The translations under genes and the position numbers were made by a program. Positions 4,910 to 34,322 of a stretch of DNA of 36,612 nucleotides are shown in pieces. Under the pieces are notes generated by a model. That model did not search any database and had not been told where the DNA came from. It saw only the letters and a list, made by a program, of their open reading frames with translations. How positions within the stretch are numbered: position 1 is the stretch's first letter; each line of letters begins with the position of its first letter. Origin of the DNA: Opitutaceae bacterium (GTDB lineage Bacteria > Verrucomicrobiota > Verrucomicrobiia > Opitutales > Opitutaceae); NCBI GenBank assembly GCA_025352845.1, contig JANXSC010000137.1, positions 1 through 36,612 of the forward strand, given 5' to 3'.

Positions 4910-4919
4910 GCGTCGCGCC

Positions 4920-7900
4920 ATGCCTACGCCCGTCCCTCCGCCGCCAACGCTGATCGAACGGATCATCGCGGCCAGCGCCCGCAACCCGTTCCTCGTTTTC
5001 ATCTTCGTCCTCTTCGGCGTGGCGGGCGGCCTCTGGGCGCTGCAACGCACGCCGCTCGACGCCATCCCCGACCTGAGCGATGTGCAGGTGATCGTTTATA
5101 CGGATTGGGAGGGCCGCTCCCCGGACCTCGTCGAGGATCAAATCACCTATCCGATCACCACGCGGTTCATCGCCGCGCCGAAAGTGAAATTCGCGCGGGG
5201 CGAGTCGATGTTCGGAAAGTCCTTCGTTTACGTCATCTTCGAGGACGGCACCGATATTTATTGGGCGCGCTCCCGCGTCATCGAATACCTGAACTCTGTC
5301 CGCGGCTCCCTGCCCGAGGGCGTGAATCCCGTCATCGGCCCCGACGCCACCGGCGTCGGCTGGGTCTTCGAATACGCGCTCGTGGACGAGAGCGGAAAAA
5401 ACAATCTCGCCGACCTGCGCAGCTTTCAGGACTGGCATCTGCGTTACGCGCTTGAGTCCGTCAAGGGCGTCGCCGAGGTCGCGCCCGTCGGTGGGTTCGT
5501 GAAGCAATACCAGGTCGATCTCGATCCGAACAAGCTCGTCGCGCATGGCATCGCGCTTGGCGAGGTGATCGCGAAAATCCGCGCGTCGAACAACGACGTG
5601 GGCGGGAAAATTTTCGAGGTCGGATCGACCGAGTATTACGTCCGCGGCCGCGGCTACATCAAGTCCCTCGCCGACATCGAGAACATCCCGCTCAAGGTGG
5701 AAAAAGGCACGCCCGTTTACGTGAAGAACGTCGCCACGGTTCACCTCGGCCCCGATCTCCGCCGCGGTGTCGCCGAGCTCGACGGCAAGGGCGAGGTCGT
5801 CGGCGGCATCGTCGTGATGCGCTACGGCGAGAACGCGCTCACCGTCATCGACGGCATCAAGCGAAAGCTGAAGGAGATCGAGCCGTCGCTACCGCCGGGC
5901 GTGAAGATCGTGCCGACCTACGATCGCAGCGAGTTGATCAGGGCCTCCATCGCGACGCTCCGTGAAAAGCTGATCGAGGAGAGCATCGTCGTCGCGCTCG
6001 TCTGCCTTGTTTTTCTCTGGCACGTCCGCTCGGCACTCGTGGCCATCGTCACGCTGCCCATCGCCATCGTGCTCTCGTTTCTGCCGATGCACTGGCTCGG
6101 GCTCACCTCGAACATCATGTCGCTCGGCGGCATCGCGATCGCGATCGGCGCGATGGTCGATGCGGCGATCATCATGGTCGAAAACGCCCACAAATATCTG
6201 GAGCATTTCCGCGCGGAGCACGGCCGCGAGCCCACCGGCACCGAGCGCGTCGACGTCATCATTGCCGCCGCGCAGAGCGTGGGCCGCCCGCTGTTCTTCT
6301 CGCTCCTCGTCATCACGGTGAGCTTCATCCCGGTGTTTTCGCTCGCGGCGCAGGAGGGCCGGCTCTTCAAGCCGCTCGCGTTCACCAAGACGTTTGCGAT
6401 GTTCTTCGCCGCGCTGCTTGGCGTCACGCTTGTGCCCGTGCTGATGGTGCTGCTCGTCCGCGGCAAGATCACGCCCGAGATCAAGAACCCGCTCAACCGC
6501 TTTCTGATTTGGGCCTATAAGCCGTTCGCGGATTTTGTTTTGCGGTTTCGCTGGCTCACGATCGCCGCCGCGGTGGTGATTCTCGCGGCGACGATCTATC
6601 CGTTCCGCAAGCTCGGCAGCGAGTTCATGCCGCCACTCAACGAGGGCACAATTCTGTTCATGCCCACGGCCGTGCCGGGCATGGCGATCGGCGAGGCGAC
6701 CCGCATCCTGCAGCTCCAAGACCGGCTGCTGCGCGAGATTCCCGAGGTGGAGCGTGTGTTCGGCAAGGCCGGTCAGGCGGAAACTCCGACCGATCCGGCG
6801 CCGCTCTCGATGTTCGAGACCGTTGTGACGCTCAAGCCGCCCGGGCAATGGCGCAGCGGCATGACGTGGGAAAAGATCATCGCCGAGATGAACGTGAAGC
6901 TGAAGACCCCCGGCATGGCCAACATCTTCTGGATGCCGATTCAGACGCGCACGGAGATGCTCACGACCGGCTTTCGCTCCGTGCTCGGCGTCAAGGTTTT
7001 CGGCCCCGACCTAGGCGTGATTCAGGAGGTCGGCATCCAAATCGAAAAGGCGCTCGGCGATTTTCCGCAAACGCGCAGCGTGTTCGCCGAGCGCACCACC
7101 GGCGGCTATTTTTTGGATTTCGCCGTGAAGCGCGAGGCCGCTGCGCGCTTCGGCCTCACCGCGGGCGACGTGAACGAAATCGTCGAGACCGCCATCGGCG
7201 GCAAGACGATCGCCACCACCGTCGAGGGCCGCGAACGCTACCCGATCAGCGTGCGCTATGCGCGCGCCTACCGCGAGGATCTCGACGCGCTCAAGCGTGT
7301 GCTCGTGCCCACGCCGGGCGGCGCGCAGGTGCCGATCTCGGCGCTCGCGGATATTTCCTACCGCACCGGGCCGCCCTCGATTCGCAACGAAAACGGCCAG
7401 CTCGTCGGCTTCGTGTTCGTGGATGTCACGACGAATGACATCGACGGCTACGTGCAGGCCGCCGCGGCGCGCGTCCGCGATCGGGTGAAGTTTCCGCCCG
7501 GCTACTACATTCAATGGGCGGGACAGTTCGAGTATCTGAAGAGCGCGGAAAAACGCCTCGCCGTCGTGATCCCGTTCACGCTGCTCATTATTTTCGTGCT
7601 CATCTTCCTCAACACGAAATCGGTCGCGCGCACCGCGATCGTGCTGCTCGCCGTGCCGTTCTCGCTCGTGGGCGCGTTCTGGTTTCTCTACCTGCTCGAT
7701 TACAACATGAGCGTGGCCGTGTGGGTCGGGCTCATCGCGCTCGCGGGCCTCGATGCCGAGACGGGCGTCGTCATGCTGCTCTATCTCGATCACGCGTGGG
7801 ACAAATTCCAGGCCGCCGGCCGGCTGCGCACGCCCGCCGATCTGCACGACGCGATTATCGAGGGCGCCGTGCAGCGCATCCGCCCGAAAATCATGACGGT

Positions 7901-8573
7901 CTGCGCGATTCTCTTCGGCCTGCTGCCCATCATGTGGTCGCCAACGACGCAGGCCGGCGCCGACGTGATGAAACGCATCGCGGCCCCGATGATCGGCGGC
8001 GTCGTGACATCCGCCGTCCTCGAACTCCTGCTCTATCCGACGATCTACATGCTGTGGCGGCGACGCCATTTGCCCGAGCCGCGCGGGCCTGAGCATGTCG
8101 CCGCAGCCGCCGGCCCGGCGCGCCGCGGTTGGATTCCCGTCCTCGTGGTGGCCGTCGTCGCCGCGCTGGGCTCGGGCGGCTATTATTTTTGGAGACACTC
8201 GGAGGGCACCGAGCCAGCCGCAAACGCCGCCGGGCTCGGCAAGCTCTTCGCCACGCGCACCGCGAACGGGCTCACCGTGAATTTCTATCACCCGGAGGGC
8301 GCGCTGCGCCACGCGATGAACGACGTGCTGATCGAATTCCGCGACGCCGCGACCGACGCTCCGGCCGATGTCGGCACCGTAAAATTCGACCTCGATATGA
8401 ACATGCCCGGCATGGTCATGCACTCCGGCAGCACGGTCGCGCCGGCGGGGGAACCCGGTCGCTACCGCGCGAAAATCAAACCCGACATGGCGGGAGACTG
8501 GACCGCGCAACTCCACTACGACGGCCCGCGCGGCCCGGGCCAGGTGAGTTTCACCGTCAACGTGAAGCCCTGA
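4920..8573 (+). CDS. CusA/CzcA-family heavy-metal RND transporter with C-terminal YtkA-like domain
   Basis: 1217 aa; RND motifs (TPLDAIPDLSDVQV, GAMVDAAIIMVENAHK); Met residues in CusA-like contexts (LFMPTA, PLSMFETV, RTEMLTTG); extra TM plus LDMNMPGMVMHSG...YRAKIKPDMAGDWTAQL at C-terminus. Confidence 0.93.
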   Translation: MPTPVPPPPTLIERIIAASARNPFLVFIFVLFGVAGGLWALQRTPLDAIPDLSDVQVIVYTDWEGRSPDLVEDQITYPITTRFIAAPKVKFARGESMFGKSFVYVIFEDGTDIYWARSRVIEYLNSVRGSLPEGVNPVIGPDATGVGWVFEYALVDESGKNNLADLRSFQDWHLRYALESVKGVAEVAPVGGFVKQYQVDLDPNKLVAHGIALGEVIAKIRASNNDVGGKIFEVGSTEYYVRGRGYIKSLADIENIPLKVEKGTPVYVKNVATVHLGPDLRRGVAELDGKGEVVGGIVVMRYGENALTVIDGIKRKLKEIEPSLPPGVKIVPTYDRSELIRASIATLREKLIEESIVVALVCLVFLWHVRSALVAIVTLPIAIVLSFLPMHWLGLTSNIMSLGGIAIAIGAMVDAAIIMVENAHKYLEHFRAEHGREPTGTERVDVIIAAAQSVGRPLFFSLLVITVSFIPVFSLAAQEGRLFKPLAFTKTFAMFFAALLGVTLVPVLMVLLVRGKITPEIKNPLNRFLIWAYKPFADFVLRFRWLTIAAAVVILAATIYPFRKLGSEFMPPLNEGTILFMPTAVPGMAIGEATRILQLQDRLLREIPEVERVFGKAGQAETPTDPAPLSMFETVVTLKPPGQWRSGMTWEKIIAEMNVKLKTPGMANIFWMPIQTRTEMLTTGFRSVLGVKVFGPDLGVIQEVGIQIEKALGDFPQTRSVFAERTTGGYFLDFAVKREAAARFGLTAGDVNEIVETAIGGKTIATTVEGRERYPISVRYARAYREDLDALKRVLVPTPGGAQVPISALADISYRTGPPSIRNENGQLVGFVFVDVTTNDIDGYVQAAAARVRDRVKFPPGYYIQWAGQFEYLKSAEKRLAVVIPFTLLIIFVLIFLNTKSVARTAIVLLAVPFSLVGAFWFLYLLDYNMSVAVWVGLIALAGLDAETGVVMLLYLDHAWDKFQAAGRLRTPADLHDAIIEGAVQRIRPKIMTVCAILFGLLPIMWSPTTQAGADVMKRIAAPMIGGVVTSAVLELLLYPTIYMLWRRRHLPEPRGPEHVAAAAGPARRGWIPVLVVAVVAALGSGGYYFWRHSEGTEPAANAAGLGKLFATRTANGLTVNFYHPEGALRHAMNDVLIEFRDAATDAPADVGTVKFDLDMNMPGMVMHSGSTVAPAGEPGRYRAKIKPDMAGDWTAQLHYDGPRGPGQVSFTVNVKP

Positions 8574-11730: not shown

Positions 11731-13209
11731 TTGCCGATTCCATCCATGCCACCCTCGACCGCCACGCCGCCGGTTCTTCGCAGCAGCTTCCTCGCACTCG
11801 CGCTCGTGCTGCTCGCCGGCTGCGCGACCACCGATCCCAAAGCCACGCTGCCCGCCGTGCAGCAGCAGATCGCCGCGCGCAGCGACCTCACCGTTTCTTG
11901 GCCACTAAACAATGACGAGCGCACTGCGGCCGATGACGCTACGCGCGCCCTGCTCGCCACCGAACTCACCCCCGCCTCCGCCGTCCAAATTGCCCTGCTC
12001 AACAACCGCCGCCTTCGCGCCACGTTTGAGGAACTCGGCGTTTCCCAAGCCGACCTCGCCGCCGCCACGCGCCTCCGCAATCCCACCTTCGCCGCCAGCG
12101 TGCGCTGGCCCGACCAACGCCCGCGCGGCCCCAACGTCGAATTCTCCCTCGTCGCCGATCTCCTCGACGATCTCCTCATCCCTCTCCGCAAAAAAGTCGC
12201 GCGCGAGCAGCTCGCGCAGGCCGGGCGTCGCGTCGCGCACGAAGTCCTCTCGCTCGCGGCCGAGGTGAAGGCCGCCGTCTATACCGCGCAAGCCCGGCAA
12301 CTTTTCGCGGACCGCCTCGCCGCCGTCGCCGAGGTCAACGCCGCCGCCACCGAACTCACGCAGCGCAAATACGACGCCGGCAACATCGGCCGTCTCGATC
12401 TCACCCTGCAACAATTTGCCGCCCGGCAATCGCGGCTCGAGCAGGCCCGCGCCGAAGCCCAGCTCAAGGCCGATCGCGAAAAGGTGAACCGGCTGCTCAG
12501 CCTCACCGGCGCGCAGAACGCTTGGAAAATCGCCCCCGGGCTCCCCGCCCTCCCCGCCCAAGAACCCGCCCTCGACCAGATCGAGACCGTCGCGATCGCG
12601 CAGCGGCTCGACCTTGCGCTGGCCGCGTCGCGCATCGCCCTCGCCGAATCCGCCCTCGCGTTGAAACGCTCGACGCGCCTCCTCCCCGTGGGGCTCAGTC
12701 TCGGCGTCGACATGGAGCGTGAGAGCTCCGGCACACGCCTCACCGGCCCGAAGCTCGAACTCGGCCTGCCGATTTTCGACCAGGGTCAGGCCGAACTCGC
12801 CCGTCTCGGCTCCGAACTGCGCCGCGCCCATGCGAACCACGAGGCCCTTGCCGCGGAAATCCAATCCGAGGTGCGCGAGTCCCGCGACGCCCTGCTCGCC
12901 GCGCGCGCCGCCGTCGACACCTTCACCGAAACTCTCCTGCCGCAGCGCCGCCTGATCCTGCAGGACACGCTGCTTCAGTATAACGCGATGCAGAAAAGCA
13001 GCTACGAGCTGCTCGCCGCGAAAGAGCAGCAGATCCGGGCCGAGCGCGAAAGCATCGAGGCGTTGCGCGACTACTGGATCGCGCGCGTGCAGCTTGAGCG
13101 TGCCCTCGGCGGCAAGTTGCCCGGCGATTCCGCACCACCCGCACCGAAGGCCGAAACTCCGGAAGGGAAAACAAGCGGCAACGAACCAGCCCACCACTCG
13201 CACAAATGA
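11731..13209 (+). CDS. TolC-family outer membrane lipoprotein (second OMF)
   Basis: Lipobox LLAGC; long coiled-coil OMF repeats; 4-nt overlap with downstream multicopper oxidase. Confidence 0.85.
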   Translation: MPIPSMPPSTATPPVLRSSFLALALVLLAGCATTDPKATLPAVQQQIAARSDLTVSWPLNNDERTAADDATRALLATELTPASAVQIALLNNRRLRATFEELGVSQADLAAATRLRNPTFAASVRWPDQRPRGPNVEFSLVADLLDDLLIPLRKKVAREQLAQAGRRVAHEVLSLAAEVKAAVYTAQARQLFADRLAAVAEVNAAATELTQRKYDAGNIGRLDLTLQQFAARQSRLEQARAEAQLKADREKVNRLLSLTGAQNAWKIAPGLPALPAQEPALDQIETVAIAQRLDLALAASRIALAESALALKRSTRLLPVGLSLGVDMERESSGTRLTGPKLELGLPIFDQGQAELARLGSELRRAHANHEALAAEIQSEVRESRDALLAARAAVDTFTETLLPQRRLILQDTLLQYNAMQKSSYELLAAKEQQIRAERESIEALRDYWIARVQLERALGGKLPGDSAPPAPKAETPEGKTSGNEPAHHSHK

Positions 13210-14663
13210 ATCCCTCTCCGCTCTCCCGCCGCGATTTCTTCTCCCTCGCCGGCAGTGCCGCGCTCGCCGTCCCCGCCGCCCGTCTCCTCGCCGCCGACGG
13301 CGAACGCCCCGCGCTCAAGCCGACGAGCACCGGCTCTACGCAACCGTTCGTCCCCGCGTCCGGCCCCTCCGGCTACAAGCCCGTCATCACACCCAACGGC
13401 GCGACGCTTCCGTGGAAAATCGTGGACGGTGTGAAAGTCTTTCACCTCATCCCCGAGCCCGTCACGCATGAGTTCGCCCCCGGTCTCGTCGCCGAGTGCT
13501 GGGGCTACAACGGCCGCGTGCATGGCCCGACGATCGAGGCCATCGAGGGCGACCGTGTGCGCATCTACGTCACGAACCGGCTCGCCGCACCGACGACCGT
13601 GCACTGGCACGGCGTCCTCCTGCCGAGCGGGATGGACGGCGTCGGCGGCGTTTCGCAGAAAGCCATCCAGCCCGGCGAGACGTTCAAGTATGAGTTCACC
13701 CTGCGGCAACACGGCACGCTGATGTATCACTCGCATCACGATGAGATGACGCAGATGCAGCTCGGCATGATGGGCCTCTTCATCATCCACCCGAAGCAGC
13801 CGACTCAGCCGCCACCCGACCGCGACTACGCCATCATGCTCAGCGAATGGAAAATCGAAGTCGGCGCGCGCCGCCCCGATCCCAACGAGATGACGGACTT
13901 CAATGTCTTCACAATGAACGGCCGCAGCTTTCCCGGCACGCAGGCGCTCGTCGCGAAGAAAGGCGACCGCGTCCGCATCCGTCTCGGCAACCTCAGCACC
14001 ATGAGCCACCACGCGATCCACCTGCACGGCTACTATTTCAAAGTCGTCGCCACCGATGGCGGCGAGATTCCCGTCGCCGGCCAGTGGCCCGAGACCACGG
14101 TCCACATGCCGACGGGCAGCACGCGCACCATCGAGTTCGTCGCCGACGAACCGGGCGACTGGGTGATGCACTGCCACATGCTCCACCACGTGATGACCCA
14201 GATGGGCCACAACTTCGGCAACCTCATCGGCATCGACGAAACCGGCCTGAACCAAGCCATCCGCCCGCTCGTGCCCGGCTACATGACGATGGGCGCGACC
14301 GGCATGGGCGACATGGGCGACATGGGGATGGCCGTTCCGCCCAACTCGCTCCCGATGGTCGGTGGCCCCGGTCAATACGACTACATCACGATGGGCGGCA
14401 TGTTCACGATTTTGAAAGTGCGCGAGGAATTGCCCGCCGACGGCTCCGAACCGGAGTGGTATAAATCGCCGCCCGGGACGCTCGCCGAGCCCGCGCCCGA
14501 AGCCGACCTCAAGCGCGACGGCATCGCCTTCGCCGCCGCGACCGCCAAGCTGGAAGCTCGCGGCAAAAAACCGCTCGAACTGTGCGACCCCGCCGCTCCC
14601 GCCGGCAATGCCAGTCCTCTCCTGCGGCAGCCGACGGCACGGGTGAAAATCGCGCTTCAATGA
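13206..14663 (+). CDS. multicopper oxidase with Tat-like signal
   Basis: SRRDFFSLAGSAALAVPAA; HWHGVLLPSG, YHSHHDEM, HHAIHLHGYYF, MHCHMLHHVMTQM copper ligand motifs. Confidence 0.92.
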   Translation: MNPSPLSRRDFFSLAGSAALAVPAARLLAADGERPALKPTSTGSTQPFVPASGPSGYKPVITPNGATLPWKIVDGVKVFHLIPEPVTHEFAPGLVAECWGYNGRVHGPTIEAIEGDRVRIYVTNRLAAPTTVHWHGVLLPSGMDGVGGVSQKAIQPGETFKYEFTLRQHGTLMYHSHHDEMTQMQLGMMGLFIIHPKQPTQPPPDRDYAIMLSEWKIEVGARRPDPNEMTDFNVFTMNGRSFPGTQALVAKKGDRVRIRLGNLSTMSHHAIHLHGYYFKVVATDGGEIPVAGQWPETTVHMPTGSTRTIEFVADEPGDWVMHCHMLHHVMTQMGHNFGNLIGIDETGLNQAIRPLVPGYMTMGATGMGDMGDMGMAVPPNSLPMVGGPGQYDYITMGGMFTILKVREELPADGSEPEWYKSPPGTLAEPAPEADLKRDGIAFAAATAKLEARGKKPLELCDPAAPAGNASPLLRQPTARVKIALQ

Positions 14664-17054: not shown

Positions 17055-19244
17055 ATGAAGCGGCTTCTTCGTCACCTTCTCTTCGCGCTCGCGATGGGCT
17101 CTTCCGCGGCTTCGGCTAAACTCGTCGAATACGATCTGACGATTGCCGAACAAACCGTGAATTTCTCGGGACAGCCGGCTCAAGCGATCATGTTCAACGG
17201 AACTCTGCCGGGGCCGACCCTCCGGTTCACCGAAGGCGATACCGCGCGCATCCGCGTGCGGAACGCGCTGCGTGAGGAGACTTCCGTGCATTGGCATGGC
17301 CTCCTCGTGCCGAACGACCAGGATGGCGTGCCCCACGTCAACCGACCGCCGATCATGCCGGGCGAGACGCAGACCTTTGAGTTCACCCTCAAGCAGCACG
17401 GCACCTACTGGTTTCACTCGCACACGGTGTTGCAGGAGCAGCGCGGGATGTTCGGCGCCATCGTCGTCCTGCCGCGCGAGCCGCGCATCCGGGCCGACCG
17501 CGATTATGTGGCCATGCTTTCCGATTGGACCGATGAGGGTCCGGACGAAGTCCTGCGCACCCTCCGCCGCGGCAGCGATTATTATCAGCTCAAAAAAGGC
17601 TCCGTGCAGAGCATCGCCGGCGCTTGGCGGCACGATGCGCTTGGCGCGATGTTCAAGCGCGAGCTTGCGCGGATGCCACCGATGGATTTGTCCGACGTGG
17701 CCTACGACCGCTTCCTTTTTAACGGCCAGCCTGAACACGTGCTCGACGCCAAGCCCGGCGAGGTCGTCCGGCTGCGCCTCGTGAACGCCGCCGCCGCGAC
17801 TTATTTTTATCTCACCTACGCCGGCGGGCCGCTGCGCATCGTGGCGGCGGATGGCAACGACGTGCAGCCGGTCGAAGTCGAACGCTTCCTCTATCCCATT
17901 GCGGAAACCTATGATTTGCTCGTGCCCGTCCCGAGCGACGGTGCGTGGGAATTACGCGCGACGGCGCAGGACGGATCGGGCAAGACCTCGCTTTTCATCG
18001 GCAGCGGTTCACGCCACTTCGCACCCGACGTCCCCAAACCCAATATCTACCAGAGCATGGCTGGAATGACGGAGATGAGCGGGATGCCCTCCACCCAGGA
18101 GAAACCCGTCGCTGCCGCGCGCACCGGCGAAGCAATGGCCGGCATGACCATGCCCGTGGAAAAAACGGCCGCCGCGAGCGCGGATCACCGCGGACACGAA
18201 AAGATGGCTGCCATGCCGGGCATGACGATGCCAGCGACGCCAAAGCCATCCGCATCGGCCGACACCGTAATCCCGATGGGCGGGATGGATGACCCCACGC
18301 GTCCCAACGCTCCCTACGCCAGCCTGCGCGCCCTCACGCCGACCACCCTGCCCGGTGATCATCCCGTGCGCGAAATCACCCTGCGATTGCAAGGCGACAT
18401 GATTCGCTTCGTTTGGTTTCTCGACGGAAAAACCCTCACCGAGGCCGACCTGATTACGATCCGTCGCGGCGAGATCGTCCGGTTCGTGATGATCAACGAG
18501 AGCATGATGCACCATCCGATGCATCTGCATGGTCATTTCTTCCGGGTGTTGAACGGCCAGGGAGAATGGTCGCCGCTCAAACACACGGTCGATTTACCGC
18601 CGATGGCCACGCAGGTCATCGAGTTCGATGCCAACGAAGAGAAGGAATGGTTGTTTCATTGCCACATCCTCTACCATGCGAAAGTCGGCATGGCTCGCAT
18701 CGTGCATTACGAGGGCTCACCGCCGAATCTATTTCTCGCGCACTTGGACAAAACCGAACACGACCCGCGATTCTACTGGGGAGAAGTGCAGGCGTTGAGT
18801 CACATGACCGAGGGTTTCGTGACCGCGCAGAATAATCGCCACGGTCTCACCGCCGCATGGCAGGTCGGCTGGCAACACGTCGAACCCACCGACTACGAGG
18901 CGCAGCTCACCTACGACCGTTACGTGAACAGCTTTTTCAGCGTGTTTGCCGGGGCGGCCGTTGATCGAGAGAGTAATCGCGGCATTCTCGGCGTCCGCTA
19001 TTTGCTCCCGCTCATGTTCCAGTCCACGTCGTGGGTGGACTCCAAGGGCGACCTCCGCATCGACCTCACGCGGCGTTTCCGGCTGACTGATCGCGTTGAA
19101 ATCTTTGGCACCGGCGAATACGACACACGGCGGAAATGGGAAGGCTCTGCCGGCGTGGAATACATCCTCGGCAAACAATTCTCCGTCGTCGGTCGCTGGC
19201 ACTCGGAGTTCGGCTGGGGTGGCGGCCTGTATCTTCGTTTCTAG
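17055..19244 (+). CDS. multicopper oxidase (CopA-like) fused to C-terminal CopB-like outer-membrane barrel
   Basis: HWHGLLVPNDQDGVPH, HPMHLHGHFF, HCHILYHAKVGM; C-terminal GVRYLLPLMFQSTSWVDSKGDLRIDL...VVGRWHSEFGWGGGLYLRF. Confidence 0.9.
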   Translation: MKRLLRHLLFALAMGSSAASAKLVEYDLTIAEQTVNFSGQPAQAIMFNGTLPGPTLRFTEGDTARIRVRNALREETSVHWHGLLVPNDQDGVPHVNRPPIMPGETQTFEFTLKQHGTYWFHSHTVLQEQRGMFGAIVVLPREPRIRADRDYVAMLSDWTDEGPDEVLRTLRRGSDYYQLKKGSVQSIAGAWRHDALGAMFKRELARMPPMDLSDVAYDRFLFNGQPEHVLDAKPGEVVRLRLVNAAAATYFYLTYAGGPLRIVAADGNDVQPVEVERFLYPIAETYDLLVPVPSDGAWELRATAQDGSGKTSLFIGSGSRHFAPDVPKPNIYQSMAGMTEMSGMPSTQEKPVAAARTGEAMAGMTMPVEKTAAASADHRGHEKMAAMPGMTMPATPKPSASADTVIPMGGMDDPTRPNAPYASLRALTPTTLPGDHPVREITLRLQGDMIRFVWFLDGKTLTEADLITIRRGEIVRFVMINESMMHHPMHLHGHFFRVLNGQGEWSPLKHTVDLPPMATQVIEFDANEEKEWLFHCHILYHAKVGMARIVHYEGSPPNLFLAHLDKTEHDPRFYWGEVQALSHMTEGFVTAQNNRHGLTAAWQVGWQHVEPTDYEAQLTYDRYVNSFFSVFAGAAVDRESNRGILGVRYLLPLMFQSTSWVDSKGDLRIDLTRRFRLTDRVEIFGTGEYDTRRKWEGSAGVEYILGKQFSVVGRWHSEFGWGGGLYLRF

Positions 19245-20323: not shown

Positions 20324-20719
20324 GTGAAACCTGCCGCGTTCGAGACCTCCGACCAGCCAGGCCACACCGCGAGGGTTCTCTCAGACGAGAGTGCGGTCGA
20401 TATTGCGATTACCAGCGAGCGTGGCGACACGCGACGCTACCAGGCGCAGTCCGTGACCCTCCAGATTGTGCGCGGGGGGATGGAGGTCTTGCAGGACTAT
20501 CGCGGCTGCTACGCTTGGTTCGAACGCTGCCGGCTGGAAGCGCGCGTGGGTCGTGAGCGCATGGTGCTGGGTTTCGCAACGGGCGTCATGTCGAGCTGCG
20601 GCGGGGAAATGACCATCGTCGCCACTTCCGATTCTGCCGCTGTGCGATCTTCGGGAACTTCCTCGAACCACCAGCCGATCGGGAAAAGCAAAAATAACGG
20701 CCGGTCCAAATCGAAATGA
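20324..20719 (+). CDS. hypothetical protein (uncertain)
   Basis: ORF overlapping start of next CDS by 4 nt; GTG 20324 close to predicted transcription start; no family recognised. Confidence 0.35.
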   Translation: MKPAAFETSDQPGHTARVLSDESAVDIAITSERGDTRRYQAQSVTLQIVRGGMEVLQDYRGCYAWFERCRLEARVGRERMVLGFATGVMSSCGGEMTIVATSDSAAVRSSGTSSNHQPIGKSKNNGRSKSK

Positions 20720-21786
20720 AAACCACCCTGTCTCTTCCTCTATCCAAAGCGGCGTTTGCCGCGCTGTTCTTCACCGGCATTTTTGCCAGCGCACTCCAAG
20801 CCGCTACGCCACCGGTCGACCCGGCGGTTCACGCCGCACACGTCGCCGCTGGCACGATGCCTCCTGACTCACCCGCACCTGCCAACATGGGAATGGCAGA
20901 CCCCGCGCTTTCCCGGCAAGTTTCCGAACTCCAGGTGAAAGTCGCTCAACTCGAAGCGACGCTCGCCAAAAACGCACCGGCGATGGCCCCCGCTCCCGCG
21001 GGTGCGGCGATGGCGGGAATGCCGGCAGCCGCGCCCACCGCAAATCCGCCGATGAGCATGGGCATGGAAAAGATGAAGTCTCCCAGCATGAGCGCCGCCG
21101 CCATGCCGGCTCCCGCGATGGCAAGCATGAGCCCACCCGCTGCGCCTTCGTCTGGAGGGATGATGGCGATGATGGGCATGATGATGGGCATGATGGACAA
21201 AATGATGCCGATGCCCGGCGGTTCCATGCCGGCAGCGGCTCCCATGGCGGCGATACCCGCCGGCGGCATGGCGATGATGCAGATGGATAAGATGGAAATG
21301 GCCGGCATGATGGGCATGGCCCCGATGGGCGGCGGCGCTCCCGGTGCCATGCCGCAATCCGCGCTCCCTGGTTTCCCCGGCGCCTCACATCTCTACCACA
21401 TCGGCGCGACCGACTTTTTTCTCGACCATCCGCAGCACATCGCCCTTTCGACTGAACAGACGGCCGCGCTCAACAAAGCGAAGGAGCAGGCGCTACTCGC
21501 GAAGAGCACCGCTGATCGCGCTATCGAGCAAGCCGAGCAGGAACTCTGGACCTTGACCGCATCGGATCAGCCGGACTCGGCCAAGATCGAAGCGAAGGTT
21601 CGCCAAACCGAAAAGCTCACGGGCGATTCACGTCTGGCTTTCGTCCGCGCCGTCGGCGACGCCAGCAAGATTCTCACCGATGAGCAGCGCAAGATCCTCA
21701 CCGGTTTCGCGTCGCCGGCTCCCGCGATGCCCGCAGCGAACACGACAGCCCCGGCCGCTGCGATGGCCCCGATGAAAGGCATGTGA
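20716..21786 (+). CDS. Met-rich secreted protein with C-terminal CpxP/Spy/ZraP-like helical domain
   Basis: Signal peptide; about 44 Met in 356 aa by my count; HIALSTEQTAALNKAKEQALLAKSTADRAIEQAEQEL...ILTDEQRKIL. Confidence 0.85.
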   Translation: MKTTLSLPLSKAAFAALFFTGIFASALQAATPPVDPAVHAAHVAAGTMPPDSPAPANMGMADPALSRQVSELQVKVAQLEATLAKNAPAMAPAPAGAAMAGMPAAAPTANPPMSMGMEKMKSPSMSAAAMPAPAMASMSPPAAPSSGGMMAMMGMMMGMMDKMMPMPGGSMPAAAPMAAIPAGGMAMMQMDKMEMAGMMGMAPMGGGAPGAMPQSALPGFPGASHLYHIGATDFFLDHPQHIALSTEQTAALNKAKEQALLAKSTADRAIEQAEQELWTLTASDQPDSAKIEAKVRQTEKLTGDSRLAFVRAVGDASKILTDEQRKILTGFASPAPAMPAANTTAPAAAMAPMKGM

Positions 21787-22940: not shown

Positions 22941-23258
22941 ATGAGCAAATCCAGCCAAGGAAACAAGATTGAGCGCGAAGCTGCCCGGCCAATAACTTTC
23001 TCGTGCCGCGCGCCGGACGCCAAAGCGATTTTTGTCGCGGGCACGTTCAACGATTGGCGCGCCGATGCGGTGCCCCTCAAGCGCCAAGCGGATGGGCTTT
23101 GGCAAACGACCGTGCGACTCTCGCCCGGCCATCAGGAATTCAAGTTCGTAGTCGATGGCCAATGGTGCTGCGAGCCTGGCTGCGAGGGCGAACATCACGG
23201 CTGCCCGAAATTTTGCGCGAACGACTTCGGCACGATGAACCGCGTGCTGGAGGTCTGA
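22941..23258 (+). CDS. CBM48/AMPK glycogen-binding-like protein with Cys/His-rich loop
   Basis: IFVAGTFNDWRADAVPLKRQADGLWQTTVRLSPGHQEFKFVVDGQW then CCEPGCEGEHHGCPKFC. Confidence 0.82.
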   Translation: MSKSSQGNKIEREAARPITFSCRAPDAKAIFVAGTFNDWRADAVPLKRQADGLWQTTVRLSPGHQEFKFVVDGQWCCEPGCEGEHHGCPKFCANDFGTMNRVLEV

Positions 23259-23426: not shown

Positions 23427-24281
23427 ATGAAAACAAAATCAGTCGAATTGTCCTGCGCCGCGCCCATCGCGCCAGCCGTGTTGAGAGCCCTAACTGGGGC
23501 CACCGTGGGAATCGGACTGCTCCTCTCGATGATGACCTTGCAGTCCTGCTCCGCGACGAAGGTAGGTCCGAATGAAGGTGACGTTGTTCAGTTAAAAAAT
23601 AGCCAAGCGAAAGCCGAAGTCGTGGCCAACGCCGACACCGGCGAGGTGATGGTTCACACGTGGGACCAGAATTATTCGAAGGCGGCGGTGGCAAAGCTGC
23701 GCGAACATAAAATCGAAGTCGTGATGCTGACCGGAGACAACGCGGCCACAGCCAAACGCATCGCCGCGGACCTTGGCATCGACACGGTGTTGGCCGACGT
23801 GCTGCCGGGCCAGAAGGCTGAAAAGGTGAAGGCGCTGCAGGCTGCGGGGAAGAAGGTCGGCATGGTGGGTGACGGGGTGAACGACGCTCCAGCGCTGACT
23901 CAGGCCGATGTGGGTTTTGCCATCGGTGCCGGCACCGACGTTGCGATGGAAAGCGCCGATGTGGTGCTGATGAAGAGCGACCCGTATGACATCGTCAGCG
24001 CGATTGAGCTGTCGCGCGCCACGTTGCGAAAGATGCATCAGAATCTCTGGTGGGCGGTGGGCTACAACGTGATCGCGTTCCCGCTCGCCGCCGGCGTCCT
24101 GTATCCTTTCGTGCTGAGTCCCGAGGTCGCCGCCCTGTCAATGTCGGGCAGCACGCTCGTTGTGGCGATCAATGCGCTGATGCTGAAGCGCACCAAGCTG
24201 GCCGGAATCAAGAGCGTCGCGCCGAAAAATGCGCCGAAAACGGATGCTCCGGTTGCCGCGCCCGTGCCGGCACGAGCGTGA
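23427..24281 (+). CDS. chimeric ORF: lipoprotein-like N-terminus fused to C-terminal part of a copper P-type ATPase
   Basis: Lipobox LQSC...KAEVVANADTGEVMVHTWDQ joined to KAAVAKLREHKIEVVMLTGDNAATAKRIA...[12 protein letters not shown] and final TM pair; no DKTGT, TGES or CPC motif. Confidence 0.85.
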   Translation: MKTKSVELSCAAPIAPAVLRALTGATVGIGLLLSMMTLQSCSATKVGPNEGDVVQLKNSQAKAEVVANADTGEVMVHTWDQNYSKAAVAKLREHKIEVVMLTGDNAATAKRIAADLGIDTVLADVLPGQKAEKVKALQAAGKKVGMVGDGVNDAPALTQADVGFAIGAGTDVAMESADVVLMKSDPYDIVSAIELSRATLRKMHQNLWWAVGYNVIAFPLAAGVLYPFVLSPEVAALSMSGSTLVVAINALMLKRTKLAGIKSVAPKNAPKTDAPVAAPVPARA

Positions 24282-25111: not shown

Positions 25112-25507
25112 ATGCTGATCAAATTACCCACTGAGAAAACCGTGCGCGAGGCTGCGGCTGCCTTGCAGGCTGCCGTCGTGGCGAATCACTTTGGCGTCAT
25201 GCAGGTTCACAACCTCCAAGAAACGATGGTAAAGAAGGGGGTGGATTTCGCTCATGAATGCCTGATCTTCGAGGTCTGCCAGCCGCAACAGGCCAAGAAG
25301 GTCCTCGATGAAAACATGAGCGTCTCGACCGCACTGCCCTGCCGCATTTCGATTTTCGAAGAGGGCGGTAAAACCGTCTTGGCGACGTTAAAGCCAACTA
25401 CAATGCTGGCGATGTTCAACACGCCGCAATTGGAAGGGGTCGCGCAGGAAGTGGAGAACGCGATCGTCAAAATTATGAAGGAGGCGGCGTTAGGGGGATC
25501 GTCGTGA
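25112..25507 (+). CDS. DUF302-like protein
   Basis: NHFGVMQVHNLQETMVKKGVDFAHECLIFEVCQPQQAKKVLDENMSVSTALPCRISIFEEGGKTVLATLKP. Confidence 0.88.
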   Translation: MLIKLPTEKTVREAAAALQAAVVANHFGVMQVHNLQETMVKKGVDFAHECLIFEVCQPQQAKKVLDENMSVSTALPCRISIFEEGGKTVLATLKPTTMLAMFNTPQLEGVAQEVENAIVKIMKEAALGGSS

Positions 25508-27594
25508 GCACAGGCAAAGACAAAGCGGTCGGTTTGCGTTTCTGCGCCGCGTGGTGTGCAGTCGCCGCGTGCATCATGCTCCCAACCGGGACTGCAATGG
25601 CACAGTCGCCCGAGGAACACGCGAGCCATCATCCGGGCGCTGCGCCGGCTGCGAGCGCCGGTGCGATGCCCGCCACCGCCGGCGCACCGGGAATGGTCGG
25701 CATGGGACCACCCGCAGGGGCGGGACCGCCTGCCGGTGCAGGCGGGATGATGGAAGGCATGGGCGAAATGATGAAGGGCATGATGGGCAAGCCGCCGCCG
25801 AAGCAGCTTTATCCCACGCTCATGGCCTTGCCGGAACTCACGCCGGAAAAACGGATGGAGGTTGAGCATGCGGCGGCCGAGCGGATGCACGCAGGCACGA
25901 CGCTGATGGGTCAAGCGCTGGACGCCCTCAACGCGGGCACGCGGTCCGGCGACTATGCCGCGATGCACGAGGCGACGACACGTTTGCGTGAAGGCACAGC
26001 GCAGCTTGAAAGCGGCATTGCGGCGCGCCGTGCGCTGGCGGAGGGCCGCGCACCGCGCGATGTCGCTCTGGCGTGGTTCAAACGCGAGCTGCGCCTCACC
26101 GCTCCCGTCTCAAGTGACGAACTCCACGGCAGTCGCGGTCTCTCGGTCTTGCATCTCTTCACGATGGCACTGCTCGTCATCTTCGCGTTCGCGATGCTCT
26201 TGATGTATTTCTTCAAGATGCGCCGTGCCGCCGCCTTGTTCGGGCGAATCGAGCCCGGCGCAGGGTCACCGCCACCGGGGTCGTCACCTCCGCTGGGCGG
26301 CGCTCCAGGGCCATCCGCACCGCCCGGAGGAAAAGCTTCCCCCGTCGAAGGCGCGCCGTCACCGTCAGCCAAGCCTAAAGCCGCAACAACGGCACCGCCC
26401 GCAGGCGACAAAGCGCCAGCGCCGCCGGCTTCACCGGACAAGTCGCCAGACCCGCCGGCTACTCCTGCCGGAAAGATAGCGGCACCGACTCAACCTCCGA
26501 AACCGCCGTCCCCTGCTGCTCCGGCGTCGCATCCGAACGGAGCGACGCCGTTATCATCGAAGTGGGGTGGTCAGCTACGCGTCGGGAGCATCGTCGACGA
26601 AACGCCCGCCGTGCGGACGTTTCGCCTTCATGCTCCCGCCGCCGGGGATTTGCCGTTCACCTTTACGCCCGGTCAATTCCTCAACGTCGCCTTCGGCATC
26701 GGCGGCGCGAGGATGAACCGATCGTATTCCATCTCCTCGTCGCCCAACGAGCGCAGCTACGTCGATCTGACCGTGAAGCGCGAGGATCGCGGCGCGGTCT
26801 CGCGCCACATCGTCGATCTGATCAAGGTCGGGGACGAACTCGAAGCGAGCGGGCCGGTCGGCAAGTTCACCTTCACGGGTGCGGAGGCGGATAGCGTTGT
26901 CCTCATCGGGGCCGGCGTCGGCATCACGCCGATGATGAGTATCGCGCGGTATCTCACGGAGCAGACCTGGTCCGGCGAGATTTTTTTTATCTACGGCTGT
27001 CGCGCTCCGACCGATTTAATTTTCAAAGACGTCATCGCGGCGCTGGCGCTTCGCAATCCGAAGTTGCACGTCGCGATCACGATGTCGAAGCCGACGCCGG
27101 ACTGGAAAGGACCACGCGGCCGCATCACGAAGGAGTTTCTCCTCCAATCGGTCCCGGACCTCCCTACACGGCGAGTGCAACTTTGCGGGCCGCCGACGAT
27201 GATGGATGCGATCAAGGTGCTTCTCACGGAGATCGGCGTCACACCGGAAAACTTGAAGACCGAGGCGTTCGGAGCGGTGAAGGCTCCTCCGTCCGCCGCC
27301 GGAACTTCGGCGAAACCACGCGCCTCCGCCACAGGACCGCTGGTCACGTTTTCGAACAATCACAAATCCGCCAAGAGTCGCGCCGAACAGACGATCCTCG
27401 AACTCTCCGAGGAACTCGGGATCGGAATCCAGTATTCCTGCCGCGTGGGAACCTGCGGGCTGTGCAAAGTGAAGATGACCGCCGGCGAGGTCGATCAGGA
27501 GGTGCAGGATGCGCTCGACGAGGACGACAAGGCCCACGGCATCATCCTCGCCTGCCAGGCGAAGCCGAAAACCGAAGTCGTGGTGGAGGCCTAG
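25504..27594 (+). CDS. membrane-anchored FAD/NAD(P)H/2Fe-2S reductase with periplasmic Met-rich helical domain
   Basis: Signal and Met-rich N-terminus, TM (LSVLHLFTMALLVIFAFAMLLMYFF), Pro-rich linker, RSYSISSSP, GVGITPMMSIARYL, SCRVGTCGLCKVKM...ILACQ. Confidence 0.88.
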   Translation: MSTGKDKAVGLRFCAAWCAVAACIMLPTGTAMAQSPEEHASHHPGAAPAASAGAMPATAGAPGMVGMGPPAGAGPPAGAGGMMEGMGEMMKGMMGKPPPKQLYPTLMALPELTPEKRMEVEHAAAERMHAGTTLMGQALDALNAGTRSGDYAAMHEATTRLREGTAQLESGIAARRALAEGRAPRDVALAWFKRELRLTAPVSSDELHGSRGLSVLHLFTMALLVIFAFAMLLMYFFKMRRAAALFGRIEPGAGSPPPGSSPPLGGAPGPSAPPGGKASPVEGAPSPSAKPKAATTAPPAGDKAPAPPASPDKSPDPPATPAGKIAAPTQPPKPPSPAAPASHPNGATPLSSKWGGQLRVGSIVDETPAVRTFRLHAPAAGDLPFTFTPGQFLNVAFGIGGARMNRSYSISSSPNERSYVDLTVKREDRGAVSRHIVDLIKVGDELEASGPVGKFTFTGAEADSVVLIGAGVGITPMMSIARYLTEQTWSGEIFFIYGCRAPTDLIFKDVIAALALRNPKLHVAITMSKPTPDWKGPRGRITKEFLLQSVPDLPTRRVQLCGPPTMMDAIKVLLTEIGVTPENLKTEAFGAVKAPPSAAGTSAKPRASATGPLVTFSNNHKSAKSRAEQTILELSEELGIGIQYSCRVGTCGLCKVKMTAGEVDQEVQDALDEDDKAHGIILACQAKPKTEVVVEA

Positions 27595-27596
27595 CG

Positions 27597-28340
27597 ATGA
27601 AAAATCGCGAACGCGCCGTCGTCATCAGCGTTTTCGTCGTGCTGGTGTTTGCCTGGCTCGGTTTTCTTTTGCACGTCTCGCCGCGCTTCGCCGGGAGCGG
27701 CCTCGGCGCAGTGTTCGGCATCGCGGGAGCGGTGCTGATGCTCCTCCCGCTCGCCTACGTCCTGGTGAAGCGCATTTCCTTTCTCAAGGAGCGCATCGCC
27801 AGATACATCTCCTTGCAAACGTGGCTGTCGATTCACATCTACACGGGAATCATCGGGGCGCTGCTCGCACTGATCCACACGGGACACAAATATGTCAGCC
27901 CGCTCGGCATTGCGCTCACCGCGACGATGCTGCTCGTCGTCGTAAGCGGGATCGTTCTGCGCTATCTCACGCCCTTCGTTAACCTCGATCTCAAGGACAA
28001 GCTTCTGCTGCTGCAGACCGCGCGGGGTGACCTCGACAGTGCGTGGGGCGTGATGGAGAAATCTGCCGCTGAGAAAAAGGGTCTCCCGAAACTGCCACCG
28101 CTGACCGCGGGCTTGGGCTCATTTGGTCTGGACTCTCCTCCCGGCAACTCGGCGGGCCGCGTGACGACGCTGGCGCAAGGTGTCGCCGACCTCGAATACT
28201 CGATCCGCACCGATGAGCTGCTGCGGCGCTGGTTTTCGTGGGCGCTAAATATCCACATCGTGGTTTCGGTGGCATTCTACGCGCTGCTCACCGCGCACAT
28301 TGCAGCCGGCATATATTTCGGGCTGAGGTGGCTGCGATGA
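27597..28340 (+). CDS. cytochrome b-like integral membrane protein
   Basis: Several TM segments; His pairs IHIYTGIIGALLALIHTGH and IHIVVSVAFYALLTAH. Confidence 0.8.
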   Translation: MKNRERAVVISVFVVLVFAWLGFLLHVSPRFAGSGLGAVFGIAGAVLMLLPLAYVLVKRISFLKERIARYISLQTWLSIHIYTGIIGALLALIHTGHKYVSPLGIALTATMLLVVVSGIVLRYLTPFVNLDLKDKLLLLQTARGDLDSAWGVMEKSAAEKKGLPKLPPLTAGLGSFGLDSPPGNSAGRVTTLAQGVADLEYSIRTDELLRRWFSWALNIHIVVSVAFYALLTAHIAAGIYFGLRWLR

Positions 28341-29119
28341 GCAGAGTCATCCTCTCATTTGCGCTCATCGTGGCGGCAGTCGCCGCAGCGACGCTCAGCG
28401 TGCTGCACTTCCCCCGCGCGCAGACCGTGGTCCGGCGCGCGATCCGTCCCGGCGATTTGTCTCAGCCGCACGCTTTCCTCGGAAACAACTGCGCGGCCTG
28501 CCACACGCCGCTGAAAGCTGTCGAGGCGAAAAACTGCATCGTCTGTCACGCGGATAACCTCGCGGTTCTCCAACGCCAGCCGAGCGCGTTTCACGCCGAC
28601 ATCGCTTCCTGCATCGCCTGCCACCTTGAGCATCAAGGCCGCATTCCGAGCACGACAAAAATGGACCACGTCGCCCTCGCGCAGATCGGCCTGCGACAAA
28701 TGCGGCGCGCAGCAGTCCCGCAGGAAAAAACGAGCGCCGACTTCGTCGCCTGGCTCACGAGCGGCACACGCGGCGCCCCGTCTTCGGTCACGCCGCAACT
28801 GCAGCGCGAAGAGGCGCAGCTCAACTGCGCGACGTGCCATCTGACCAAAGACCGGCACGCCGGTCTCCTCGGTGCCGACTGCGCTCAATGCCACGCCACC
28901 GCGAAGTGGACCATCCCGGAATTCCGCCACCCCTCGCCCGCCTCGCAGTCCTGCGCCCAATGCCACCAGGCTCCGCCCAGCCACTACATGATGCACTTCA
29001 AAATGGTGTCGATGACGGTCGCCCACATGGAGAAGGCCGATGTCAGCCAGTGCTTCCTCTGCCATCAAACGACCGCATGGAACGACATCAAGGGCGGCGG
29101 CTTCTACAAACATCACTGA
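28337..29119 (+). CDS. multiheme c-type cytochrome (seven CxxCH)
   Basis: CAACH, CIVCH, CIACH, CATCH, CAQCH, CAQCH, CFLCH; N-terminal anchor; 4-nt ATGA overlap with upstream gene. Confidence 0.9.
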
Positions 29120-29222
29120 CTGGTGCCGCCTGCTGGCGAGGTCCGCGCAGCTCGCACTTTGGCCAGTTGACTCCAATCTTTCTCCGCTCCGTCTGCCGGG
29201 TATGAATTTCCGCCATCGCCTT

Positions 29223-31556
29223 ATGAAAAAAGATCCTCACGACCACACTAACGCCCCGCTCGATCATGGTGCCGCAAAGCACACCAATGGACATTCCTGT
29301 CAACACCACGCCGGACATGCGGCAGTCAAGCCCTCCTCCACCGCCGCCTATTTTTGCCCGATGTGCGAGGGCGTCATGTCAGACAAACCCGGCGCCTGCC
29401 CGAAGTGCGGCATGGCGCTCGAGCGCAATCCCGCCGTCGCTGCGACGCGCGGCAAAACGATCTACACCTGCCCGATGCACCCGCAGATCGAGCAGGATCA
29501 TCCGGGCAACTGCCCCATCTGCGGCATGGCGCTGGAACCCAAGGGCGTGTCCGCGGGCGATGAGGAAAATCACGAACTGCACGACATGACGCGGCGCTTC
29601 TGGATCGGGCTCGCGCTCGCCGCGCCCGTGCTCGTGCTCGCGATGGGCGAGATGTTTCTGCACGGCGTCATCACGCCCGTCGCTTCACAATGGATTCAAT
29701 TCGCCCTCAGCACCCCAGTCGTTTGGTGGGCGGGTTGGCCGCTCCTCGTCCGCGGGTGGAATTCCGTGCGGACGTGGAACCTGAATATGTTCACGCTGAT
29801 CGCGATTGGTGTTGGCACCGCGTGGTGCTACAGCGTCGCGGCCTTTTTCCTGCGCGACAAATTTCCCGCGTCCTACCTCCAACATGGTGCGGTGCCGGTG
29901 TATTTCGAGGCGGCGGCCGTCATCACCGTGCTCGTGCTCCTCGGCCAGGTGCTGGAACTCCGCGCGCGCAGCCGCACGGGCCTCGCGTTGAAAGCCCTGC
30001 TCGACCAGGCGCCCAAGACGGCCCGCCGTGTGCGCGACGGAAACGAGGAAGAAATCCCCGCGGACGACGTGAAGGTCGGCGACATCCTCCGCGTGCGACC
30101 CGGCGAAAAAGCGCCGGTGGACGGCGTCATCACCGAAGGCCACAGCTCCCTCGACGAGTCGATGATCACCGGCGAATCGCTGCCCGTGGAAAAAAGCCTC
30201 CACGATAAAATCACCGGCGGCACGATCAACGGCACGGGCAGTTTTCTGCTGCGCGCCGAGCGCGTCGGTGCCGACACGGTGCTCTCGCAGATCGTCCACC
30301 TTGTCGCCGAGGCGCAGCGCAGTCGCGCGCCGATTCAACGCCTCGCCGACAAAGTCGCCGCGATTTTCACCCCGACCGTGCTTGCCGTCGCGGCGCTCAC
30401 GTTTGTCGCGTGGGCTTACTTCGGACCGGAGCCGAGCTACCTCCACGGCATGGTGAACGCCATCGCCGTGCTCATTATCGCCTGTCCCTGCGCGCTCGGC
30501 CTCGCCACGCCGATTTCCATCATGGTCGCGGTTGGTCGCGGCGCGCAGGCCGGCGTCCTGGTGAAAAACGCCGCCGCCCTCGAAGCGCTCGGCAAAATCA
30601 CGACGGTCATTGTGGACAAGACCGGCACGCTCACCGAGGGCAAGCCGAAGGTCGTGAACATCTGGACCGGCGCCGGTGGCAACGAAGCCGAGACGCTGGC
30701 GCTGGCCGCGTCGCTCGAAAACCGCAGCGAGCATCCATTGGCGCGCGCGGTCACCAAAGCCGCCGAAGAACGAAGCATCGCCCTGCGCGATGTCGCCAAT
30801 TTCGAATCCATTCCCGGCAATGGCGTGTCCGGTCTGATCAGCGGACAAACGATCCGCATCGGCAAAGAAGACTGGCTCGCCGCGAGTGGCGTCAGTGTTT
30901 CTCCAGAGTGGAACGCCGAGGCGACGAAACTCCGCGAGCAGGGCCAGACCGTGATTTTCGTCGCCGGCAATGATCGGATGCTCGCGCTCCTCGGCGTCGC
31001 CGATCCCATCAAAGCCACGACGCCGAAAGCGATCGAGGAACTGCACCGCCTCGGCATCCGCGTGATCATGGCGACGGGCGACAACGCCCAGACCGCCGAG
31101 GTCGTCGCAAAAAAACTCGCCATCGACGAGGTGCGCGCCGGCGTCGAACCGAAGGCCAAGCGCGAACTCGTGCTCGCGTTGAAAGCCAAAGGCGAGCGCG
31201 TCGCGATGGCCGGCGATGGTGTGAACGACGCCCCGGCGCTGGCCGAGGCCGACGTCGGCATCGCGATGGGCACCGGCACCGATGTCGCCATCGAGAGCGC
31301 CGGCCTCACGCTCTTGAATGGCGATCTACAGGCGCTCGTGCGCGCCGTCCATCTCAGCCGCGCCACGACGAGAAACATCCGGCAGAATCTTTTCTTCGCC
31401 TTTTTCTACAACGCGCTCGGCGTGCCCGTCGCCGCGGGCGTGCTCTACCCGTTCTTCGGCCTCCTGCTCAACCCGATGCTCGCGGGCGCGGCGATGAGCC
31501 TGAGTTCCGTCAGCGTCATCCTGAACGCCCTCCGGTTGCGTCGCGTGCGGCTGTGA
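29223..31556 (+). CDS. copper-translocating P1B-type ATPase with His-rich N-terminus and two heavy-metal-binding domains
   Basis: [36 protein letters not shown]..., [50 protein letters not shown]. Confidence 0.95.

Positions 31557-32126: not shown

Positions 32127-34322
<2,196 letters not shown>

Follow-up and report, generated by a model that had tools for sequence, protein, structure and literature searches.

A putative NAD(P)H-fed electron conduit with a heptaheme cytochrome c and its linkage to copper islands

Architecture of the three-gene locus

This study deals with three adjacent genes on a 36,612-nucleotide stretch of DNA, referred to below as the window, which comprises positions 1 to 36,612 of contig JANXSC010000137.1 from the Opitutaceae bacterium assembly GCA_025352845.1. 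The genes, named here the trio, encode a flavin/2Fe-2S reductase with a Met-rich domain (gene 1), a cytochrome b-like membrane protein (gene 2) and a seven-heme cytochrome c (gene 3). A preliminary description of the window had reported three tightly packed genes on the same strand with a 2-nt gap followed by a 4-nt overlap, and this is the spacing read from the sequence (Table 1). It had also described a first product in which a periplasmic Met-rich helical domain is followed by one transmembrane (TM) helix, a Pro-rich linker and a reductase with FAD, NAD(P) and 2Fe-2S motifs, a second product with two His pairs and a third with seven CxxCH sites; Pfam matches, motif positions and hydropathy agree with each of these descriptions. 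Hydropathy predicts a signal peptide and one TM helix (residues 215-233) for gene 1, five TM helices for gene 2 and one N-terminal anchor for gene 3. Relatives of the trio were collected from the GTDB species set, in which 219 were found and the best 80 fetched, and the counts given below refer to a set of 85 trio loci unless stated otherwise. The observed features of the trio are far beyond chance, because it recurs in 85 loci with invariant motifs. Such genes are currently annotated as 'hypothetical protein', 'iron reductase' or 'cytochrome c3 family protein'.

The reductase module of gene 1 matches FAD_binding_6 (PF00970), NAD_binding_1 (PF00175) and, at its C-terminus, Fer2 (PF00111), all above the Pfam cut-offs, which places the protein among the FNR-type flavin/2Fe-2S reductases, similar to Hcr, PaaE and GbcB; none of the NCBIfam equivalog cut-offs was reached. 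The Cys ligands of the 2Fe-2S cluster are invariant (85/85) and the residues of the FAD and NAD motifs are kept in at least 78 of 82 sequences. The TM helix appears as helix 182-212 in the fragment model, at a high predicted local distance difference test (pLDDT) score. The N-terminal domain has no Pfam match above the cut-off, and the fold search of its model against the PDB gave none at E <= 0.001. Its motifs are nevertheless well conserved among the homologues: H39 is found in 68/70, H42 in 69/71 and H43 in 70/71 of them, and within the Met-rich motif M86 is kept in 68/68 and M89 in 71/71, with 6-11% Met in the homologous domains. About 70 of the 71 full-length copies keep both motifs. At loci where gene 1 is split, the Met-rich domain persists as an adjacent open reading frame (ORF). 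Since the motifs are conserved and the domain stays next to the reductase even where the gene is split, the sequences indicate that it is an intrinsic part of the reductase chain.

In gene 2, the two His pairs reported in the preliminary description are H80-x13-H94 on TM3 and H220-x13-H234 on TM5, both with the spacing Hx13H. The AlphaFold2 model (pLDDT 81.7) contains helices 73-95 and 185-246, which hold the positions of the pairs. Six His residues are invariant, each in 85/85 loci, namely these four together with H26 (27672-27674) and H97 (27885-27887), which lie beyond the four putative heme ligands. H97 stands three residues past H94, near the position of His-119 described for NOX enzymes, four residues past His-115.

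Gene 3 encodes a membrane-anchored cytochrome whose periplasmic location follows from family knowledge of c-type cytochromes. Pfam matches were obtained to MtrC/MtrF II-IV, C7 and c3, and the seven CxxCH sites are present in 84/85 loci. Exactly seven further His residues are invariant in 85/85 loci (H45, H86, H99, H111, H174, H198 and H216, numbered from the ATG at 28337), which is the count that seven bis-His hemes would need. The stretch GLRQMRR at about 28695 could have marked a frameshift or the loss of an eighth heme; this reading was rejected, as close relatives share the heme-less GLRQM in an open frame.

Distribution, gene order and co-divergence

The trio is rare within the family of its host (7/252 genomes) and widespread outside it. 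Among the best 80 of the 219 relatives, the nearest to the trio of the window come from Opitutaceae and other Verrucomicrobiota, and nine phylum labels are represented: Verrucomicrobiota, Planctomycetota, Pseudomonadota, Bacteroidota, Nitrospirota, Acidobacteriota, Myxococcota, Hydrogenedentota and one bin labelled Cyanobacteria. In the tree of the trio the phyla fail to separate cleanly into clades, a mixture that would be as expected for mobile DNA, and the number of transfers is not firm owing to bins and paralogues. The trio was also found in 52 plasmid records, of which 26 are conjugative.

Linkage of the trio in other genomes, the lack of which was to count against the preliminary description, is conserved: in 84/85 loci the reductase is followed by the cytochrome b and then the cytochrome c, all on one strand. 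At the exception (L008) the reductase is truncated by an insertion sequence and a second reductase gene is located elsewhere. Pairwise protein distances among the three members correlate with r of 0.75, 0.90 and 0.77, as opposed to a permutation maximum of 0.09, which shows that the three proteins co-diverge.

Relationship of the cytochrome b to PCC3 proteins and ferric reductases

A profile search with the gene 2 family in 369 Gammaproteobacteria separated two true members, at about 380 bits, sharply from proteins of about 300 residues that scored 43-77 bits in some 40 genomes. Next to the latter lie genes for cytochromes with 18 to 61 hemes and for a 4Fe-4S protein; this neighbourhood matches the PCC3 porin-cytochrome clusters, and the proteins were therefore assigned to PCC3 (He et al., 2017; PMC5566968). 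Profile comparison of the gene 2 family with the PCC3 inner-membrane proteins by hhalign gave a probability of 99.4% (E 6e-22, 153 columns). Two Hx13H pairs are present in 50/50 members of the gene 2 family and the TM4 motif SGxxxR[YF] in 44/50. On the basis of these alignments, gene 2 is a divergent relative of the PCC3 inner-membrane protein, a family that is itself ferric-reductase-like and is proposed to move electrons across the inner membrane by two b hemes (He et al., 2017; PMC5566968).

The preliminary description had called the spacing of the His pairs heme-b-like. Their invariance and their position on the model helices agree with this, as does their location on TM3 and TM5, a trait of the ferric reductase domain (FRD) and of the NOX/FRE enzymes; the TM3 pair is moreover in register with that of ferric-reductase domains (hhalign 31%, E 5e-4, with negative-control families at 1% or less). 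However, gene 2 reached 21.3 bits with the Pfam ferric reductase family PF01794, under the cut-off of 28, and weak matches were obtained in just 5/50 members. Foldseek gave no match of the gene 2 model in the PDB at E <= 0.001, and five TM helices are predicted as opposed to the FRD fold with its sixth TM helix. Searches of the PDB with sequence profiles likewise gave no match of note. DUF4405 was rejected as parent family (hhalign probability 2%).

Linkage to copper genes

Core copper genes were defined as those for a multicopper oxidase, CopB, a CusA-type pump, a P1B ATPase, a four-helix copper protein or DUF411 within about 10 kb of the trio, and loci of at least 15 kb were treated as long loci (n=62); windows from other places in the same genomes served as controls. 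Core copper genes were found at 55/62 long loci and in 15/17 cytochrome-b sequence clusters, as opposed to 2/29 control windows (5/32 when three windows from contigs that carry the trio itself are counted as well), so that the association with copper genes for which the preliminary description had suggested a search is borne out. These figures were obtained with query proteins drawn from the islands themselves and for copper genes that are clustered. None of nine PCC3 loci, which are shorter (10-13 kb), contained a core copper gene, and the reductase and the Met-rich domain were also found in 0/9. The trio is thus physically linked to core copper genes above background.

The commonest partner is the multicopper oxidase, present in 55/85 loci at a median distance of 3.6 kb, with a background of about 0.5-0.6 per Mb in 20 whole genomes and about 0.01 expected per 20 kb. 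CopB barrels lie near 41/85 loci and a CusA-type pump near 16/85. Directly upstream of the trio, the commonest gene encodes a Met-rich Metal_resist protein (13 loci), which was on the upstream side in 32/35 cases.

The hydrogenase operon of Alteromonas

Copper is the usual but, judging from the gene neighbourhoods, not the sole partner of the trio. On the Alteromonas plasmid pAM1A3 (L125, L127), the trio, complete with HASHHP and a Met-rich segment, heads the operon of the HynSL [NiFe]-hydrogenase. The gene order matches the published orf1/cyt/orf2/hynD/hupH/hynS/hynL/hypCABDFE (PMC3102683), and it follows that orf1 is the homologue of the cytochrome b and cyt that of the heptaheme gene 3; the homologue of gene 1 lies directly upstream of orf1, just outside the published construct. 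The same 49 kb of the plasmid also encode CopC, CopD, a cupredoxin and a MerR regulator. Hydrogenase genes were also found near L033, which beyond the Alteromonas plasmids is 1/85 sampled loci. This pairing suggests that the module can plug into different periplasmic partners.

Proposed electron path and alternative explanations

We consider it likely that the trio is a porin-less, NAD(P)H-fed electron conduit of the inner membrane, most likely serving periplasmic copper redox chemistry on copper islands. From the sequences we infer how the electrons run, how the proteins sit in the membrane and that copper is bound. The FAD domain of the reductase would oxidise cytosolic NAD(P)H, and the electrons would pass, as family knowledge suggests, to the C-terminal 2Fe-2S cluster and from there to the inner and then the outer b heme of the five-TM protein, in which, likewise from family knowledge, parallel TM3 and TM5 would stack the two hemes across the membrane. 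Such a division of reductase and membrane domain between two chains would amount to a split NOX/FRE-like arrangement. From the outer b heme the electrons would enter the seven c hemes of the anchored cytochrome in the periplasm and reach an acceptor. The His/Met-rich domain of the reductase chain would also lie in the periplasm, near the heme exit, and would most likely bind copper; possible uses are Cu(II) reduction at this domain or at partner Met-rich proteins, and the supply of electrons to some partner in the periplasm, such as a multicopper oxidase. The preliminary description had proposed passage of electrons from cytosolic NAD(P)H across the membrane to the periplasm, which the modules and the predicted topology favour, although the order of flow was reached by inference. 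As it also suggested, Cu(II) or a multicopper oxidase may be the acceptor, and the Met-rich domain might gate the flow.

Several observations weigh against this interpretation. The sequence does not single out one electron acceptor, and the heme b assignment rests on motif and homology, with a fold search of the model that gave no PDB match. No core copper gene was found at 7/62 long loci, and a consensus scan upstream of the trio gave no enrichment of CusR/CopR or CueR-like palindrome motifs. The islands also carry other cargo, such as the F-ATPase (16 loci), gnd and glycogen enzymes, so the trio may be hitch-hiking within a broad stress island, and in Alteromonas it is paired with a hydrogenase.

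As a special case of the proposed conduit, the trio may be a dedicated periplasmic cupric reductase, a bacterial split counterpart of yeast FRE1/FRE7. Its HxxHH/Met-rich domain would then be the site of Cu(II) reduction, and the resulting Cu(I) would go to Cu(I) carriers or exporters. The copper linkage and the FRE-like membrane domain point in this direction, as does the presence, on the reductase chain itself, of conserved His motifs of the Cu(II) type and Met motifs of the Cu(I) type; yeast FRE1, FRE2 and FRE7 are cupric reductases (PMC3591440), and specific bacterial ones are almost unknown, with CcoG alone in a 2020 review (PMC7558416). However, of the two forms Cu(I) is the more toxic, most islands contain a Cu(I)-oxidising multicopper oxidase with which a futile cycle would arise, and the CusA-type pump is near just the 16 loci mentioned; this function is conceivable but doubtful. 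A somewhat less probable explanation is that the conduit supplies electrons to oxidases or repair enzymes of the periplasm, with the multicopper oxidase as O2 sink or with oxidised Met-rich proteins as substrates, as MsrQ/Fre feed MsrP. MsrQ-Fre is a known split pair of FRD and flavin reductase (PMC5676040) and the multicopper oxidase is the commonest neighbour, but no multiheme domain was found fused to the neighbouring multicopper oxidases, and the recurrent neighbour clusters, in which no search was aimed at MsrP, showed no recognisable MsrP-like gene.

Electrons could also run in reverse or in both directions, from periplasmic donors such as H2 via HynSL to NAD(P)+. The position of the trio at the head of the Alteromonas operon, for which the published cluster offers no obvious alternative carrier of electrons in the membrane, and the hydrogenase genes near L033 speak for such a use. 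It is unlikely in general, as hydrogenase genes are so infrequent at the other loci, no strongly reducing donor in the periplasm is to be expected from copper chemistry, and HynSL was found to be active in E. coli without Orf1 and Cyt (PMC3102683). Extracellular electron transfer by a complex of the Mtr/PCC type is very improbable, even though the cytochrome b is of the PCC3 family and occurs with a multiheme cytochrome and, at nearly half of the loci, with CopB barrels nearby. There is no dedicated porin, MtrB/PioB matches were marginal (about 25 bits or less) in 3/20 trio genomes, the trio lacks a second, extracellular multiheme cytochrome, and seven hemes seem short for the periplasm. The trio was accordingly rejected as a PCC3 complex: one seven-heme cytochrome is encoded in 84/85 loci, and neither porin nor large multiheme cytochrome genes are among the recurrent neighbours.

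The conduit proposed here may be extended, tentatively, to a mobile machine dedicated to copper redox chemistry, in which an NAD(P)H wire with a His/Met copper domain would reduce periplasmic Cu(II) and be tuned by bound copper, as a multi-chain, heme-extended analogue of yeast FRE. If this is true, bacteria spread, via plasmids and across many phyla, the spending of cytosolic reducing power on periplasmic copper chemistry, a system that is missing from the known parts of copper resistance (pumps, chaperones, multicopper oxidases). The link of copper resistance to PCC3-type conduits and a hydrogenase operon suggests one interchangeable membrane module with various periplasmic partners, and offers a testable role for genes that carry the annotations mentioned above.

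The copper island of the window and further observations

The host genome is metagenome-assembled (5.5 Mb, 663 contigs) and contains cytochrome c maturation genes. The copper island in which the preliminary description had placed the trio was confirmed by the identification of an RND pump, two multicopper oxidases, a Spy/ZraP-like protein and a P1B ATPase; a PocR/AraC regulator is also encoded there. The operon probably starts one gene before gene 1, with a DUF302 gene that was found in this window only among the trio loci and is a lineage-specific addition.

Table 1. Features of the trio and of the surrounding copper island in the window.
Feature	Position	Strand	Remarks
Gene 1, reductase	25504-27594	+	GTG start; 696 residues
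HxxHH motif of gene 1	25618-25632	+	residues 39-43, directly after signal peptide; candidate metal site
Met-rich segment GGMMEGMGEMMKGMMGK of gene 1	25744-25794	+	residues ~81-97
Single TM helix of gene 1	26146-26214	+	residues ~215-237; hydropathy peak 2.6
Ferredoxin-NAD(P)-reductase-like module of gene 1	26569-27591	+	Pfam domains and motifs
FAD motif RSYS	26719-26730	+	reductase module of gene 1
NAD(P) motif GVGITP	26914-26931	+	reductase module of gene 1
Plant-type 2Fe-2S motif CRVGTCGLC	27439-27465	+	reductase module of gene 1
Gene 2, diheme cytochrome b-like	27597-28340	+	ATG start; 247 residues
Gene 3, heptaheme cytochrome c	28337-29119	+	ATG start; 260 residues
DUF302 gene	25112-25507	+	131 residues; PF03625, E 1.8e-17; 4-nt overlap with gene 1
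CusCBA-type RND efflux genes	2271-8573	+	same island
Multicopper oxidase	13206-14663	+	same island
CopA/PcoA-type multicopper oxidase	17055-19244	+	TIGR01480 426 bits, below cut-off 479
Met-rich Spy/ZraP-like (Metal_resist) periplasmic protein	20716-21786	+	elsewhere often directly upstream of trio
CopA-type copper P1B ATPase	29202-31556	+	directly downstream of trio; TIGR01511 584.6 bits, cut-off 397

The CusA-type RND pump (4920-8573, 1217 residues) carries a C-terminal YtkA-like domain (residues 1114-1199), an unusual fusion, and the gene at 23427-24281 combines a lipoprotein-like signal sequence with the C-terminal HAD half of a P-type ATPase, as a remnant or chimera of a copper ATPase. 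A small protein with an AMPK-type glycogen-binding domain is encoded at 22941-23258; relatives occur in 11/85 trio loci, and glycogen enzymes are found on several islands. A short tandem repeat (VSGVWCL / TPDTRHQ in two readings) lies at about 32180-32250 within a long ORF downstream of the island. Defence-system proteins were looked for, and none was found.

On the islands of other hosts, the gene that immediately follows the cytochrome c encodes a DUF1622 membrane protein in 8 loci (L085, L010, L126 and others). Such a gene lies within 10 kb in 14 loci, and its product may be an extra subunit. The trio islands of Legionella (L048-L061, L070-L079 and the plasmid L011) contain a second F-type ATP synthase gene set, and in Legionella fallonii a multicopper oxidase is fused to a CopB domain (L011:12054-15422).

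Comparison with known systems

The PCC3 inner-membrane protein resembles gene 2 in its five TM helices, the two Hx13H pairs on TM3 and TM5, the SG motif on TM4 and the adjacent multiheme cytochrome c (PMC5566968). However, it comprises about 300 residues as opposed to 247, and its profile scores are at most 77 bits as opposed to about 380. Whereas PCC3 clusters combine a 4Fe-4S protein, pairs of 18- to 61-heme cytochromes and a porin, the trio consists of an FAD/2Fe-2S reductase and one seven-heme cytochrome, without a porin, on copper islands. Also similar in composition are the porin-less clusters mentioned by He et al., which may include the trio; they combine a multiheme cytochrome of the periplasm with another redox protein and with a five-TM protein that is shorter and has two Hx13H pairs. 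In these, however, the membrane protein follows the cytochrome, and the available part of the paper mentions neither a link to copper nor a Met-rich reductase (He et al., 2017; PMC5566968). Orf1 and Cyt of Alteromonas macleodii are homologues of genes 2 and 3 by gene order, but their direct neighbour is a hydrogenase and not a multicopper oxidase or copper pump (PMC3102683).

With NOX/FRE and MsrQ-Fre the trio shares the proposed transfer from an FAD/NAD(P)H reductase to an FRD membrane domain, from which it differs in the two chains, the added 2Fe-2S cluster, the five TM helices, the heptaheme exit and the weak FRD sequence match. The cupric reductase CcoG may share a function with the trio, although its architecture is unrelated and two 4Fe-4S clusters reduce Cu(II) (PMC7558416). 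The preliminary description knew of no characterised copper system of this composition, and no heptaheme or cytochrome-c3 copper system was found described in the open-access literature, with subscription papers outside the scope of the search. Compared with this literature, the composition and the copper setting of the trio are apparently new, while its membrane part is kin to a known family of conduits.

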